Notes under the pieces: model-generated
What the model saw: only the letters and a program-made list of their open reading frames with translations
Database searches by the model: none
Told to the model about the DNA's origin: nothing
Assembly (NCBI GenBank): GCA_021432605.1
Contig: MU271143.1
Location: 257,277-321,276 of the forward strand
DNA: 64,000 nucleotides
Reading direction: 5' to 3'
Source: Coniochaeta sp. PMI_546
Lineage: Eukaryota; Ascomycota; Sordariomycetes; Coniochaetales; Coniochaetaceae
Shown here: one piece after another, positions 37,435 through 43,854 of the stretch
Layout of the letters: each line of letters begins with the position of its first letter
How positions within the stretch are numbered: position 1 is the first letter of the stretch
Program-made: the position numbers and the translations under genes

Positions 37435-38006
37435 AGAGTCTCATGCAGGATGATGACCGGGTAAAATATGCTGTGGATTGGAGCAGGTAATGAATGATAT
37501 GAGAACAACAAGTGAAGTCGTCACCTCAGTGTGACCAAGTCTTATCCGTTCGGATGAAGTAACGCGACTGGAGTGAGTTGAATGACAGTATATCCCATCG
37601 GATTGACCTCAATCGAGAACAGAGCACGCTGATACACGTTTGAAGGTCAATGATGATTGGCGAGGTTGTTGTCAGTTATGACAGTTAATAACCTGGAAGG
37701 TGTTTAACTTGCCCATCTCCCGAGGTCTCTCAGTAGATTACCTCTGGAGCTACCTTACCTCTATGTCGAAAGTTTAGCGGTCAAGAACGGCAGGATTAGC
37801 GACTTTACGTAGTGGCAGCGGGGCCGGAAACCCCGCCAGTCAACTTTTTGGGACTCGCCCGAGGTGGCATTGCATTGCATTGACTCATCTGTGCCACTTC
37901 CAAGTCTTGGTGTCTTGTTCCCCCCGTTGCATCTTGAGTGCATCGTGACAACAAACTTCACAGCCAGCTCCAAGGAATACCTTGCCTGAAAGGCGCGCCG
38001 TCAAAG
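37435..38006. other. Divergent promoter TFIIIC subunit / HIS7
   Basis: No gene. Bidirectional 5' region of 572 bp containing the TGACTCA site listed separately. Confidence 0.55.
37881..37887 (+). promoter_or_regulatory. CPC-1/Gcn4 recognition element upstream of HIS7
   Basis: TGACTCA is a perfect match to the site bound by the bZIP activator Gcn4 of yeast and its filamentous-fungal counterpart CPC-1/CpcA. It lies 119 bp before the HIS7 ATG. Histidine genes are classical targets of cross-pathway control, so position and gene make this site plausible. Confidence 0.6.
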
Positions 38007-39671
38007 ATGCCCACGGTACACCTCCTCGACTACGTCGCCGGCAACGTGCGCAGTCTGGCCAATGCCATCGAGAAGCTGGGCTACGAGGTCGAGTTGATCA
38101 GATCGCCAGAAGAGGTCGCCAATGCAGATAAGCTCATTCTGCCAGGCGTAGGACACTTTGGCCACTGCATGTCACAGCTGTCGGCCGCCGGCTATGTGCC
38201 CTATCTCCAAGCCCACATCGCCGCCGGCAAGCCCTTCATGGGCATCTGCGTCGGCCTCCAGGCCCTCTTCTCCGGCTCGGCAGAAGACCCTGCCTGCCCG
38301 GGACTTTCCCTCATCCCGGGATCCCTCGACCGCTTCGACGACACATCCAAGTCTGTCCCTCACATAGGCTGGAACAATGCCTCGTGTCCCACAAACCCGA
38401 CGCTCTACGACCTCCGGCCCGACAGCAAGTACTACTACGTCCACAGCTACAAGTTCCCCTACAAGCCCGGCGAGCTGGAATCCCTCGGCTGGGCCGTCGC
38501 GACCGGCTCCTACGGCGGCGAGACCTTCGTCGGCGCCATAGCCAAAGACAACATCGTCGCGACCCAATTCCACCCCGAGAAGAGCGGCGTAGCCGGCCTG
38601 CGGCTGATCCGCGCATTCCTCACCGGCACCGGCGCCGCAACCCTCTCCTTCCAGCCCCCCTCCGAAGCCCACATCTCCAACACATCCTCCTCCCTCGTAG
38701 CGCCGGAGGGCCTCACGCGCAGGGTGATAGCCTGCCTCGACGTGCGCGCCAACGACGCCGGCGACCTGGTAGTCACAAAGGGCGACCAGTACGACGTGCG
38801 CGAGAAGACGGACACGCGCGGGGTGCGCAACCTCGGCAAGCCCGTCGCCATGGCCAAGAAGTACTACGAGCAGGGCGCGGACGAGATCGCCTTCCTCAAC
38901 ATCACCTCCTTCCGCGACTGCCCCGTGGCGGACCTGCCCATGCTCGAGATCCTGCGGCAGACGTCCAGGACCGTCTTCGTGCCCCTGACCATCGGCGGCG
39001 GCATCCGCGACACCGTGGACGCGGACGGCACCAAGGTCTCGGCGCTGGAGATCGCCACGCTCTACTTCAAGAGCGGCGCGGACAAGGTCAGCATCGGCAG
39101 CGACGCCGTGCTGGCCGCCGAGGAGTACTACGCCTCCGGGTCGCAGCTGTTCGGCAACACGGCCATCGAGCAGATCAGCCGCGCCTACGGCAACCAGGCC
39201 GTCGTCGTCAGCGTCGACCCCAAGCGCGTCTACGTGCCCAAGCAGGACGCCACCCGCCACGCCACCGTCCGCACCAGCCTGCCCGGCCCCAAGGGCGAGG
39301 AGTACTGCTGGTACGCGTGCACGATCAAGGGCGGGCGCGAGACCCGCGACCTGGACGTCGTCGAGCTCACGCGCGCGGTCGAGGCGATGGGCGCCGGGGA
39401 GATACTGCTCAACTGCATCGACAAGGATGGCACCAACAGCGGGTTCGACCTGGAGCTGATCGCGCAGGTGAAGAGTGCTGTCAGGATACCGGTCATTGCG
39501 AGCAGCGGAGCCGGAAACCCGGGCCACTTCCAGGAGGTGTTTGAGAAGACCACCACGGACGCGGCGCTGGGGGCGGGCATGTTCCACAGGGGGGAGTACA
39601 CCGTCCAGCAGGTGAAGGATTACCTGGCCGAGAAGGGGCTGGTGGTCAGGAAGTTTGAGGGAGAGTTATAG
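38007..39671 (+). CDS. HIS7: Imidazole glycerol phosphate synthase HisHF
   Basis: Single exon, 554 residues from ATG 38007 ([16 protein letters not shown]). The frame extends upstream, but this start matches the family. It is a bifunctional fusion. The N-terminal glutamine amidotransferase (about 1-210) has nucleophile Cys81 in GICVGLQ and the His189/Glu191 pair in QFHPEKSG. The C-terminal HisF cyclase (about 235-554) is a (beta/alpha)8 barrel starting at RRVIACLDV with Asp245, followed by the phosphate-binding loops IGGGIRD and [11 protein letters not shown] and by NCIDKDG. Ammonia from glutamine converts PRFAR into IGP and AICAR, the fifth step of histidine synthesis, linked to purine recycling. 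Strong GC bias at third positions. Divergent from the TFIIIC subunit with a Gcn4-type site; convergent with antizyme 377 bp downstream. Confidence 0.97.
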
Positions 39672-40048
39672 CACCACCCACGTGTAAATCATGAATTGGT
39701 GAAGGTTGGAGTTGGGGAAAAAGGGATGGATAGACGTTTAACCATTTTTTGACGCCTCGAAAGGGCGGAAAACCTATAGAAAACAAGCTATACTTGTGAC
39801 TCCCCGACCAAATGTGCGGGCGGTCCAAATGATACCAATCCGATGCAACGACCGTGATGATTCAAACCGTAGATGCAAGACGTGATCAGCAACTGTGCAA
39901 TCCAGAGAAACCCTCATTCAACCAAGCGACCGACAATAACCAGATGAGACAGGCAAACCCAGACACAAGACAAGACAGGTGACCAAACCAACTTTCCCGA
40001 AAAGGAAGAAGAAGAAGAGAAAAAGAAAAACCCTGATCCGTTGCAACT
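39672..40048. other. Convergent 3' UTR spacer HIS7 / antizyme
   Basis: Both genes end here. A purine-rich tract (GAAGAAGAAGAAGAG) at about 40003-40030 is the only notable element. Confidence 0.5.
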
Positions 40049-41057
40049 TTAGACCTCCATGCCCATGAAAAGCCACCTCTCGCTCGTGACATCCATGCCG
40101 CCGGTCCAGAAGTCGAGCGTGGTGAGCGAGAAGCCGGCCCACTGCAGGCCCGTCAGGAGCGGCTTCCTCTCCTCCTCGGCGATGGACCGGTCGACGCAGA
40201 CGACCATGTGGGAGCAGGCCAGCGGGCTCTCGGCGAGCTCGATCAGCGCGACGAGGGCCTGCTTCAGGTCCCTGCCGAGCACGTTGGCGTCGAAGAAGAC
40301 GAAGAGGCTCTTGACCTCGCGGTCCTCGGCGACGAAGGCCCGGAAGCTGTTGCCGCCCGCGTAGTCCCAGATCTCGAGCCAGGCGGCGACGCTGCCCGGG
40401 TAGACGCCGGACATGCGTCGCTGGGCGGCGTTGCGGGCCATGACGGCGTGGTCGCCGATGGGGTAGTAGTCCGGCGGGGTCAGCTGGCCGAGCGCGTCGA
40501 CCACGGCGCGGCCGCTGCTGGCTCCGTCGAAGCCGGTGCTGTTGAATTGGTTGTGGTTGTTGTCGTATTGCTGTTGTTGTTGGTCGTGATGATAATAAAC
40601 ATCCGTCAGGCGGGAGACCCGCGCAGCCTCGTCCGTCTCACCCAGAAACGTGGCGCGCAGGGTCTCGCAGAAGAACCTCTCACATTCTCCCCTGATCCGA
40701 GATGTTGCCCCCCCTCGACGGTGCTGCCGAGTTGTAGTGTTGTTGTTGCTGCTGCCACTGCGACCGGAGCTGCTGTTGTAGCGGGCTGACTTGGCCTTGG
40801 GAGTCAGCGCGAGCTCGTTGGTCGCGGTGAGGGCCGCGAGGGGGGGGCTTGAAGGCGGCGAGGGTAGTCCCGTGGAAGGGACCTCAGGAATACCACTCGG
40901 CCCCTGTGACGCCCGTAGTGCAGTAGTGCAGCCCCTTGAGGGAGGCGGCCGAGGGGTCGACGACGTAGCAACTGGCGAGGATATTGGCCTGGCGGACAAT
41001 GCCCTCGCCGTAGTTACTACTACTACGATTATTATTATTGTGTTTCATGGGCGCCAT
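40049..41057 (-). CDS. Ornithine decarboxylase antizyme, two frames joined by +1 frameshift
   Basis: ORF1 runs from ATG 41057 to TGA 40886-40884 (57 codons, MAPMKH start, ending EWYS). ORF2, in the +1 frame, is open from 40999 and ends at 40049. Slipping one base after TCC (40889-40887), skipping T40886, resumes at GAG 40885 and gives an antizyme of about 335 residues. ORF2 carries the conserved antizyme fold at its end: SVAAWLEIWDY, SLFVFFDANVL, a helix with LIELAESPLACSHMVVCVDRS and a final TSERWLFMGMEV strand. Antizyme binds ODC monomers, targets them for ubiquitin-independent proteasomal degradation and inhibits polyamine uptake; frameshifting is stimulated by polyamines, closing the loop. 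Unusual are the long Ser/Asn/Gln-rich insert (QQQQQYDNNHNQFN) and poly-Asn in ORF1. ORF1 translated alone would give only a 57-residue peptide. Neither frame alone makes antizyme. Confidence 0.9.
40884..40895 (-). promoter_or_regulatory. Programmed +1 ribosomal frameshift site of antizyme
   Basis: On the minus strand this reads TGG TAT TCC TGA, followed by GGT. TCC-TGA is the same codon-stop pair used at animal antizyme shift sites, and a TGG two codons before is also shared with the vertebrate site. The base after the stop is G here, whereas it is U in vertebrates. The frame change lines up exactly with the ORF2 reading. Confidence 0.88.
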
Positions 41058-42858
41058 TGCTGCTGGGGGATGCCACGGTTGGAGATGGGGATGGGGATGG
41101 GATTGAGTTGAGGTTTAAGTTTGGATTGCCTTGGGTTGGGGTTTCGGTGAGAGGTGTCGAGTCGAATTGAAGCCTGGATTGGACTTTGCTGGATGGTTTG
41201 ATGGCGGTTCGAGTCGAGTCAAGGACTGAATTACTGGGAGATGATGGCACGAAGGTGATCTGTGATATATTTTCTCTTTGGCTTTTTTTTTGACGGGTCG
41301 GTGATGCTGATAATGTCGGTGATTGATGATAGCGAGACAGCGACGTCGTACAGGCGGTTGCAGCGGTGTCTTAGGTTGTGTGTGCGAGATCTGTGGTTGG
41401 GGGAAGGAGAAGCCGGTTCCAAGCGGTGACCGGATTGGAGTTTGGGCCTTAAAATGGAAACTTCGGACAGTCACTCCCTCACGTCACGTGACATGACCAC
41501 AACCACCTTTCTTTCCATCCTTCCAAGGATTTCTGCGCTGCTTATAGTGTTCAGTCCCGTCGGGTTACCTAGAGTACTTAGTACACAGTCGCTGACAGTT
41601 GCCAAACCACCCACGATCTCAAGTCTCGATTATCATACCATCACACTGATTCAGTGCCAAATCAAATTACTATTTGTATTTTCGAGAAAGTTCCTGATAC
41701 CGTAAACCATAGTATTTACGTGCGCAGTCTCTCTTCAATGTGCTTTTTGTCGCTCGATGAAATGGTTGCTTCCAGACCCGCCTATGGAGCTCCCCTCAAA
41801 TCCCGCTGATCAGCAAGTAAAGGGACAGCCAAGATCTGCAACTGGTTTGGTAAAGTTCAGCGGTGTGAAGGTCCATGTGACAGCTGGCAGCCAACCAATT
41901 CACCTCATGACCTGTAGTTCCAACTTCTTCCGGACAAAGACACAGGGGAGATAATGACGGTTCGAAAACACTCTTTTCAAGCAGATATGTCAAATTCATG
42001 CAGGTTGTTGTTCCTGTTATTGCTCTCTAACACAGCGGTCATGACATTCCCCTTCACCCCCGCCTACCTAGGTACTTTACACTCCAAGGCAGGTGCCCCT
42101 CATGGACCCTTCCACTTACCACGACCACAACTGTGATACTGCGCTGCTCTTCTGGGCTCTCCAAGGTTGACCCCACCAATGCCCCACCATCTTTAAGTGG
42201 TTGCTTCCGCTATCGATAACCGCTCTGGCCGGGGAATATCACATCAGCTATCGCAAACCTTACGACATGTTGGGCGCCCAAGTTTCATGTCCTCGTCATT
42301 ATGATTCCCATTCGACTACCGTAGATTAAGGCCTGAATCCAGTGCCGGATGGCCTGTTCCGGACATCTTGGATTCTGCTTGATGTCTACTTTAGTCCCAG
42401 TGCAAGCGCAGTAAACAAAGATCATTTGCGGTCCTTCCTTCCTTCAACATTGAACTGTTCTCTCATCCTCATCCTCAGCTTCAACTGCGAACTCGGAGTT
42501 CCGCGGAACTCTAACATCAGCCCAGCTTCCCCTCCACTACATGATCTCGTGCACTGTTTCACGGTGTATCACTCATCAGCACCTTCCGACGGCTCCGAAC
42601 CTTATTCACTCTGGGTCTTGGGGTCTTGGGGTCTTAAGGGATCTCGCGGAGAGCTTCCGCCACCGTGACTCGTGTACCGAGGTGCCCTTAAGACCGAGCT
42701 GTCCCTGCAGAACCACCATCAAACACGAGATTCAGCCTCTCTGCGCCGGGGGCCTGGGTTTAACTTAGATCTCGATAAGATTAAAGCCAGGCCGTTTCGA
42801 CCATCCTGAATGGTTCATAAGCATGTCACTCTCGTATTGAAGGATTTCAACTGTCGAG
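41058..42858. other. Divergent promoter region antizyme / Yippee gene
   Basis: No gene I would call. The near part is the antizyme leader, with a 71-codon upstream frame (41250-41035) that overlaps the antizyme ATG out of frame. A 10-bp palindrome with an E-box core is listed separately. The part near 42.3-42.8 kb is the Yippee-gene 5' region. Confidence 0.45.
41483..41492. promoter_or_regulatory. E-box palindrome GTCACGTGAC upstream of antizyme
   Basis: Perfect 10-bp palindrome centred on CACGTG, about 430 bp upstream of the antizyme ATG. CACGTG is bound by bHLH factors. Function is not shown. Confidence 0.35.
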
Positions 42859-43854
42859 ATGAGTCCCTCAACAAGCAGTGTTCCGCTATTCCCAACCTTT
42901 CTTCTCCCTAGCTTGCGTATACCCTTCCGCCGGCGACAGTCTAGCTCTACCTCGCCTCCCGAACGGCTCGGCCAAGATCCTATAGTCAGCACAAAACGTA
43001 GCACTGTGCCTTCGCTCTCTTCATCTCCGACGTCGACCATCTCAGACTCAGACCCTGTGTCTCCCTCTGACCTAGAAACGTTCTCTTTCCCTCTGGACTT
43101 GACCACAGAAGATGGCCAATGCAAATCGCCGCCCAGCAGAGCAGAGCTCGGTACTCTGCATCGTCCCCAGCCGGACACCATCCGATGCGGTACTTGCGCA
43201 GCCGACTTGGCCTTCGGCGCCCAGATAGTCAGTAAAGGCTTCACCGGCCGCTACGGTCGAGCTTTCCTCGTCAGCCCGCCCTCGTCGCTCTCCACGACCC
43301 CGGTTGAACTGGGACTCGACCTGCACCCTCATGGTATAAGTAAGCGCGACGTGGACGACCTGAACGATAGCGAGCTCCTCAATATCAAGATCGGAAGCCG
43401 GGAGAATCGGCAGCTCGTGACCGGCGCGCATGTAGTGGCCGACATTAGCTGCGCCGTGTGTGGTACTAAGGTCGGATGGAAGTACGTCGAGGCTGCCGAG
43501 GCCGCACAAAAGTACAAGGAGGGCAAGTACATCCTCGAGACGCAGCGTGTCGTCATCTTCCGCTCCTGGGAGGATGCGGAGGAGACCTCTGGCCTTGGCA
43601 GCAGAGAGAGCGTCGACGTTGCGGGTCAAAGGGACAGTGTGCTGTTCCTTAGGCAGAGTGTCGACTCGGAAAGCGACGGCAACAAGCTCATCGCTGAGGT
43701 GCCTCTGGGCAAGGATGACAACCGTGGCCAAGACATCGTCTTCGATTCCGAGGACGAGGAAGAATGCGAAGACATCTTCTCTGGGATATGGGATCCGGCC
43801 GTGGTGGTCAAGAGGCGGAAAACGAAAGTAGCTCGGCTCAGAGGGAAGAAATGA
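42859..43854 (+). CDS. Yippee-domain zinc-binding protein
   Basis: Single exon, 331 residues. The Yippee/Mis18 fold is recognised from two CxxC zinc knuckles, Cys110/Cys113 (IRCGTCAADLAF) and Cys198/Cys201 (ISCAVCGTKVGWKYV). Between them lie the family blocks SKGFTGRYGRAFLV and RQLVTGAHVVADISC, followed by AAQKYKEGKYILET. Between FLVSPP and LLNIKIG there is an insert of about 35 residues (Ser/Thr and Asp-rich) not seen in animal Yippee proteins, where the two blocks are close. The N-terminal 105 residues and the acidic C-terminal 100 residues are disordered; the very end is basic (KRRKTKVARLRGKK) and could be a nuclear signal. Yippee proteins are small zinc proteins tied to cell division in animals and to ubiquitin ligase scaffolds in fungi and yeast; a specific role here is not inferable. 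Divergent from antizyme. Confidence 0.85.
   Translation: MSPSTSSVPLFPTFLLPSLRIPFRRRQSSSTSPPERLGQDPIVSTKRSTVPSLSSSPTSTISDSDPVSPSDLETFSFPLDLTTEDGQCKSPPSRAELGTLHRPQPDTIRCGTCAADLAFGAQIVSKGFTGRYGRAFLVSPPSSLSTTPVELGLDLHPHGISKRDVDDLNDSELLNIKIGSRENRQLVTGAHVVADISCAVCGTKVGWKYVEAAEAAQKYKEGKYILETQRVVIFRSWEDAEETSGLGSRESVDVAGQRDSVLFLRQSVDSESDGNKLIAEVPLGKDDNRGQDIVFDSEDEEECEDIFSGIWDPAVVVKRRKTKVARLRGKK

Follow-up and report, generated by a model that had tools for sequence, protein, structure and literature searches.

The described systems closest to the gene found here are the fungal antizymes of ornithine decarboxylase (ODC), proteins that hold polyamine levels within limits, i.e. SPA of S. pombe and the antizymes of Botryotinia fuckeliana and Emericella nidulans, two filamentous ascomycetes. 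Animal antizymes 1 and 2 share with this gene the UCC_UGA shift site and the antizyme domain, but the base that follows the UGA is a U in vertebrates and a G here. UCC_UGA is the usual shift site of antizymes (PMC5009743). Ascomycota are listed among the phyla with an antizyme (PMC4505036), fungi have a single antizyme each (PMC3982577), and the antizyme sequences of B. fuckeliana and E. nidulans are described without experimental study in these species (PMC3432380). YIP3, another frameshifted gene of filamentous ascomycetes, is dealt with in PMC3777964. The antizyme of the agaricomycete Coprinopsis cinerea has a fungal +1 shift in common with the present gene, but its shift codon is UUU, accompanied by a conserved stimulatory nascent peptide (PMC5009743 and PMC4505036), whereas UCC is found here. 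OAZ1 of S. cerevisiae shifts to the +1 frame at the UGA of its ORF1, as is proposed here; its site, GCG_UGA_C, is inherently shift-prone and is associated with negatively acting signals (PMC5009743 and PMC4505036). The preliminary description of this DNA had noted the G after the UGA in place of the vertebrate U. The base was read correctly, but the C of the S. cerevisiae site (PMC5009743) shows that a non-U base is not new in itself.

The gene is located on the minus strand of the window, i.e. the whole stretch of 64,000 nucleotides that was analysed, and has the layout of a frameshifted antizyme, with a short ORF1 closed by UGA and a +1 ORF2 without a proximal start codon. ORF1 (41057..40884) consists of an ATG, with a G at both -3 and +4, opening a frame of 57 sense codons, and of a TGA at 40886..40884. 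The encoded protein reads MAPMKHNNNN...YCTTGVTGAEWYS with the C-terminal end ...TGAEWYS, the final codons before the TGA being GCC GAG TGG TAT TCC. ORF2 (40885..40049) starts with GAG in the +1 frame and comprises 278 codons and a stop. After the skip of the T at 40886 its N-terminal reading is EVPSTGLPSPP..., and the earliest Met is residue 149 of the 278. A frameshifted product of ORF1 and ORF2 is predicted to have 335 residues. The shift site itself, TCC-TGA at 40884..40889 with the T at 40886 as the skipped base, is identical to the UCC_UGA of the antizyme family (compared with PMC5009743). An ORF1 of 57 codons ending in EWYS-stop, and a +1 frame resuming at GAG (40885) after a skipped T, had both been claimed in the preliminary description; both were recovered, with the exact junction seen, and the strand that was missing from it is the minus strand. 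By eye, a run of AAT/AGT codons (Asn, Ser) was also seen in ORF1 at 41016-41039, as well as a CAA/CAG run encoding five Gln in ORF2 at 40568-40582.

Comparison with Pfam matched ORF2 to ODC_AZ (PF02100) with an E-value of 1.2e-45 and 154.5 bits (curated cut-off 24.2) over residues 167-278, its last 112, corresponding to 40052..40387 on the minus strand. No Pfam match at E<=1 was obtained for ORF1, so that the domain is present in the +1 frame only, as had been stated before. A six-frame search of the same genome (33.5 Mb, 24 contigs) with PF02100 agreed on the place and returned one match, which is this locus; match counts of six-frame searches are lower bounds. A sequence search of the PDB with ORF2 as query found antizyme chains at E-values of 0.088-0.4 only, and these matches were rejected as stand-alone proof of identity because they are too weak. 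An AlphaFold2 single-sequence model of the antizyme domain (118 residues) had a mean pLDDT of 67.8, i.e. moderate confidence. The first two Foldseek ranks for this model were human antizyme 1 bound to ODC, with E-values of 1.3e-4 and 1.5e-4 and 19% sequence identity in the two alignments; on a model of moderate confidence they superposed poorly (TM 0.46-0.49, rmsd 10.9 and 11.8). The GNAT family came next after human antizyme 1, with a GNAT acetyltransferase at rank 3 (E 9.4e-4), and rat antizyme 1 was found at rank 14 with TM values of 0.62/0.59. A resemblance of antizyme to spermidine/spermine N-acetyltransferase has been described (PMC5009743). Because the PDB sequence matches are weak and the model superposes poorly, the identity rests on the Pfam profile, from which ORF2 is firmly predicted to encode an ODC antizyme. 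Relatives of ORF2 were also sought in collections of viral and prokaryotic contigs, where 2 and 24 pattern-matching stretches were found and none was confirmed; since these collections are viral and prokaryotic, this null result is uninformative on conservation in fungi.

Codon usage was scored against 15 long open frames located elsewhere in the window, which are stop-to-stop frames and not verified genes, with every stop inside a tested frame costing 6 bits. Over the ORF1 stretch, the ORF1 frame scored +7.0 bits, the ORF2 frame -25.4 and the third frame -59.8. Over the ORF2 stretch, the ORF2 frame reached +73.9 bits, while both other frames were negative and contained stops, the ORF1 frame scoring -81.5. 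Sliding codon scores swapped sides across the junction; 25-codon windows between 40937 and 40815 were negative in all three frames, and the ORF2 frame had no clear lead between 40769 and 40647. Of 157 true-frame windows, 41 scored at least the 9.2 of ORF1 codons 17-57, as did 12 of 296 off-frame windows; the -14.5 of the ORF2 frame over the same codons was matched from below by none of the 157 true-frame windows and by 36 of the 296 off-frame windows. By this comparison, ORF1 has the appearance of coding sequence, unlike the ORF2 frame upstream of the shift site. Plain readthrough of the UGA was considered as well and rejected, as the ORF1 frame has 2 stops over the length of ORF2 in addition to the negative score mentioned above. 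Past its stop, the ORF1 frame is open for 67 codons (40883-40680).

The same scores bear on the possibility that translation of ORF2 begins at an internal AUG, Met149 or Met158, so that a short antizyme domain would be made with no need for a frameshift. The PF02100 match begins at residue 167, and a start at either Met would retain the whole matched domain. However, residues 1-148 show coding-like codon usage, the ORF2 frame scoring +18.3 bits there and the other two frames -51.5 and -45.6, and an internal start leaves unexplained why an ORF1 ends exactly at TCC-TGA in register. Such a start is regarded as highly improbable. Chance occurrence of the arrangement was assessed among the window's 254 ATG-initiated ORFs with 50 or more codons, both strands included. 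Five of them end in TCC-TGA, and 22 are followed by at least 100 open +1 codons after the stop; only one of these 22 ends in TCC-TGA, and this is the antizyme ORF1. The 12-mer TGGTATTCCTGA occurs at 6 places in the genome, compared to 4 for a reversed control pattern. By itself it is near chance, and the weight therefore rests on its context. A sequencing error or a pseudogene, with the extra T arising by artefact or mutation, would also have to be weighed, since a one-base indel taken in isolation would look identical. The break, however, sits exactly at the shift site of the family and all 278 codons of the +1 frame are open, and the genome search located no antizyme match other than this one, which leaves an error or a decayed gene with next to no chance of being the right account.

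Splicing could bring the two frames together as well, by an intron that removes the ORF1 stop and makes recoding unnecessary. In total, 230 GT/GC...AG pairs (about 40-600 nt, 3' end before 40400) join the frames without a stop. The two most intron-like among these are the intron 41017-40786 (232 nt) with donor GTAACT (5/6 consensus), CTRAY 22 nt from its end and CAG, and the intron 40893-40773 (121 nt) with donor GTATTC (4/6 consensus), CTRAY 35 nt from its end and CAG; both donors, however, are without a G at position 5. The sole pair passing a filter of GTNNG, YAG and CTRAY at 12-45 nt is 40997-40571 (427 nt, donor GTCCGC), but it has a C at position 3 of the donor, and its excision costs more than one third of ORF2. 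None of the 11 GTs in ORF1 fits GTRNG, and no intron that would connect ORF2 to an ATG further upstream (from 42500 on) passes the GTRNG and CTRAY filter. A 64-nt intron that links the two coding frames of this genome's ODC gene, read by eye as GTAAGC...CTAAT...TAG, does fit GTRNG, although it is a single example. Moreover, all three candidate introns excise the shift site, so that its exact match to the family stays unexplained. Judged from the sequence, a frame-joining intron is unlikely because the GTs of ORF1 miss GTRNG, the donors of the candidates are weak and the ODC intron is consensus-like; as a full account of the locus that dispenses with recoding, splicing is given a very slim chance.

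A change of frame at TCC-TGA, as interpreted in the preliminary description, is supported because codon usage switches, no convincing frame-joining intron was found and the arrangement is a known one for antizymes (PMC5009743). The locus most probably encodes a standard fungal antizyme produced by +1 programmed frameshifting at TCC-TGA, a reading to which a probability of roughly 0.94 is assigned. Translation would initiate at the ATG at 41057 and ORF1 would be read up to Ser-57, where the ribosome would pause, UGA occupying its A site. Some ribosomes would then skip the U and so move into the +1 frame at UCC-UGA, with GAG (Glu) as the next codon, and would proceed through ORF2 to yield the antizyme of 335 residues. 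By analogy with the antizymes that have been studied, rising polyamines may enlarge the shifted fraction, and the product may bind ODC, block formation of the ODC dimer and send ODC to the proteasome. The occurrence of the shift, its efficiency, its response to polyamines and the effect of the product on ODC are points that we infer, the responsiveness to polyamines being presumed from the antizyme family. Since the UCC_UGA site and the antizymes of filamentous ascomycetes are already in print, the kind of gene and its mechanism are known, and the locus adds one further antizyme. It has a clear two-frame layout, and leaves the knowledge of recoding and of polyamine control unchanged. For annotators, it means that a gene caller which reads one frame will truncate or misstart the antizyme protein.

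Sequences flanking the shift site were inspected for stimulatory elements. On the 5' side, the codons TGG TAT (40890..40895, minus strand) adjoin the shift codon, which is the position of module A, a 5' stimulator adjoining the shift codon according to PMC4505036, and they can be considered a candidate by position. On the 3' side, a possible 6-bp hairpin, GGUCCC-UUCCAC-GGGACU, begins at the base after the UGA (40866..40883, minus strand) and is a candidate 3' stimulator. In a 24-nt window, the hairpin ranked 10 of 269 in ORF2; equal or greater stability was seen in 22 of 1000 synonymous recodings. A 43-nt window was unremarkable (189 of 1000 recodings, rank 178 of 263), and in longer windows the recodings at least as stable numbered 29/300 for 60 nt, 34/300 for 90 nt, 25/300 for 120 nt and 12/300 for 150 nt. 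As six window sizes were tried, the hairpin signal is only a hint. When six stretches were folded with a method that does not predict pseudoknots, the lowest z-score (-1.76) was located at 40700-40790, away from the site. Immediately 3' of the shift site, three stretches had z-scores of -0.96, -1.36 and -1.09, and the two stretches 5' of it both had 0.09. A search of 40000-42000 with Rfam at E<=1 returned no antizyme frameshift element; the two matches obtained, WT1-AS_4 and mir-1000 on the plus strand, were both unrelated and below threshold. The hairpin, beginning at the base after the UGA, would lie at a shorter distance from the shift codon than do the antizyme pseudoknots, which start 3 nt after the site (PMC5009743), or the agaricomycete structure, placed 19 nt downstream in PMC4505036. 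It is doubtful that the hairpin acts as a lineage-specific 3' stimulator; if it did, the G in the 3' context position would be explained as a base of the stem.

Other components of the polyamine pathway are represented in the same genome, where match counts are likewise lower bounds. One match to PF02784 was found for ornithine decarboxylase and one match for AdoMet decarboxylase, while spermidine/spermine synthase gave four, three of them exon-like and adjacent on one contig and a weaker one elsewhere. The minus strand has four ATGs within the 600 nt upstream of the antizyme gene. The one at 41518 may open a uORF of 15 codons (41471..41518), and that at 41494 a nested uORF of 7 codons with the same stop; these are relevant only if the transcript reaches there. 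The remaining two ATGs, at 41641 and 41636, open frames of 2 and 5 codons.

A filamentous fungus had been named as the source of the DNA, and this is likely. The largest exon of ribosomal protein L3 was best matched by the PDB chains 7r81, 8oo0 and 7olc, which we take to be from Neurospora crassa and Chaetomium thermophilum, and the organism is probably a filamentous ascomycete of the Sordariomycetes. Among ten long frames of the window that were compared with Pfam, six had a match, including a TFIIIC subunit and an MFS transporter. According to Pfam, the antizyme gene is flanked on the plus strand by a bifunctional histidine-biosynthesis enzyme at 37938-39668, which is convergent with it, and by a Yippee/Mis18 protein at 42841-43851, which is divergent from it.
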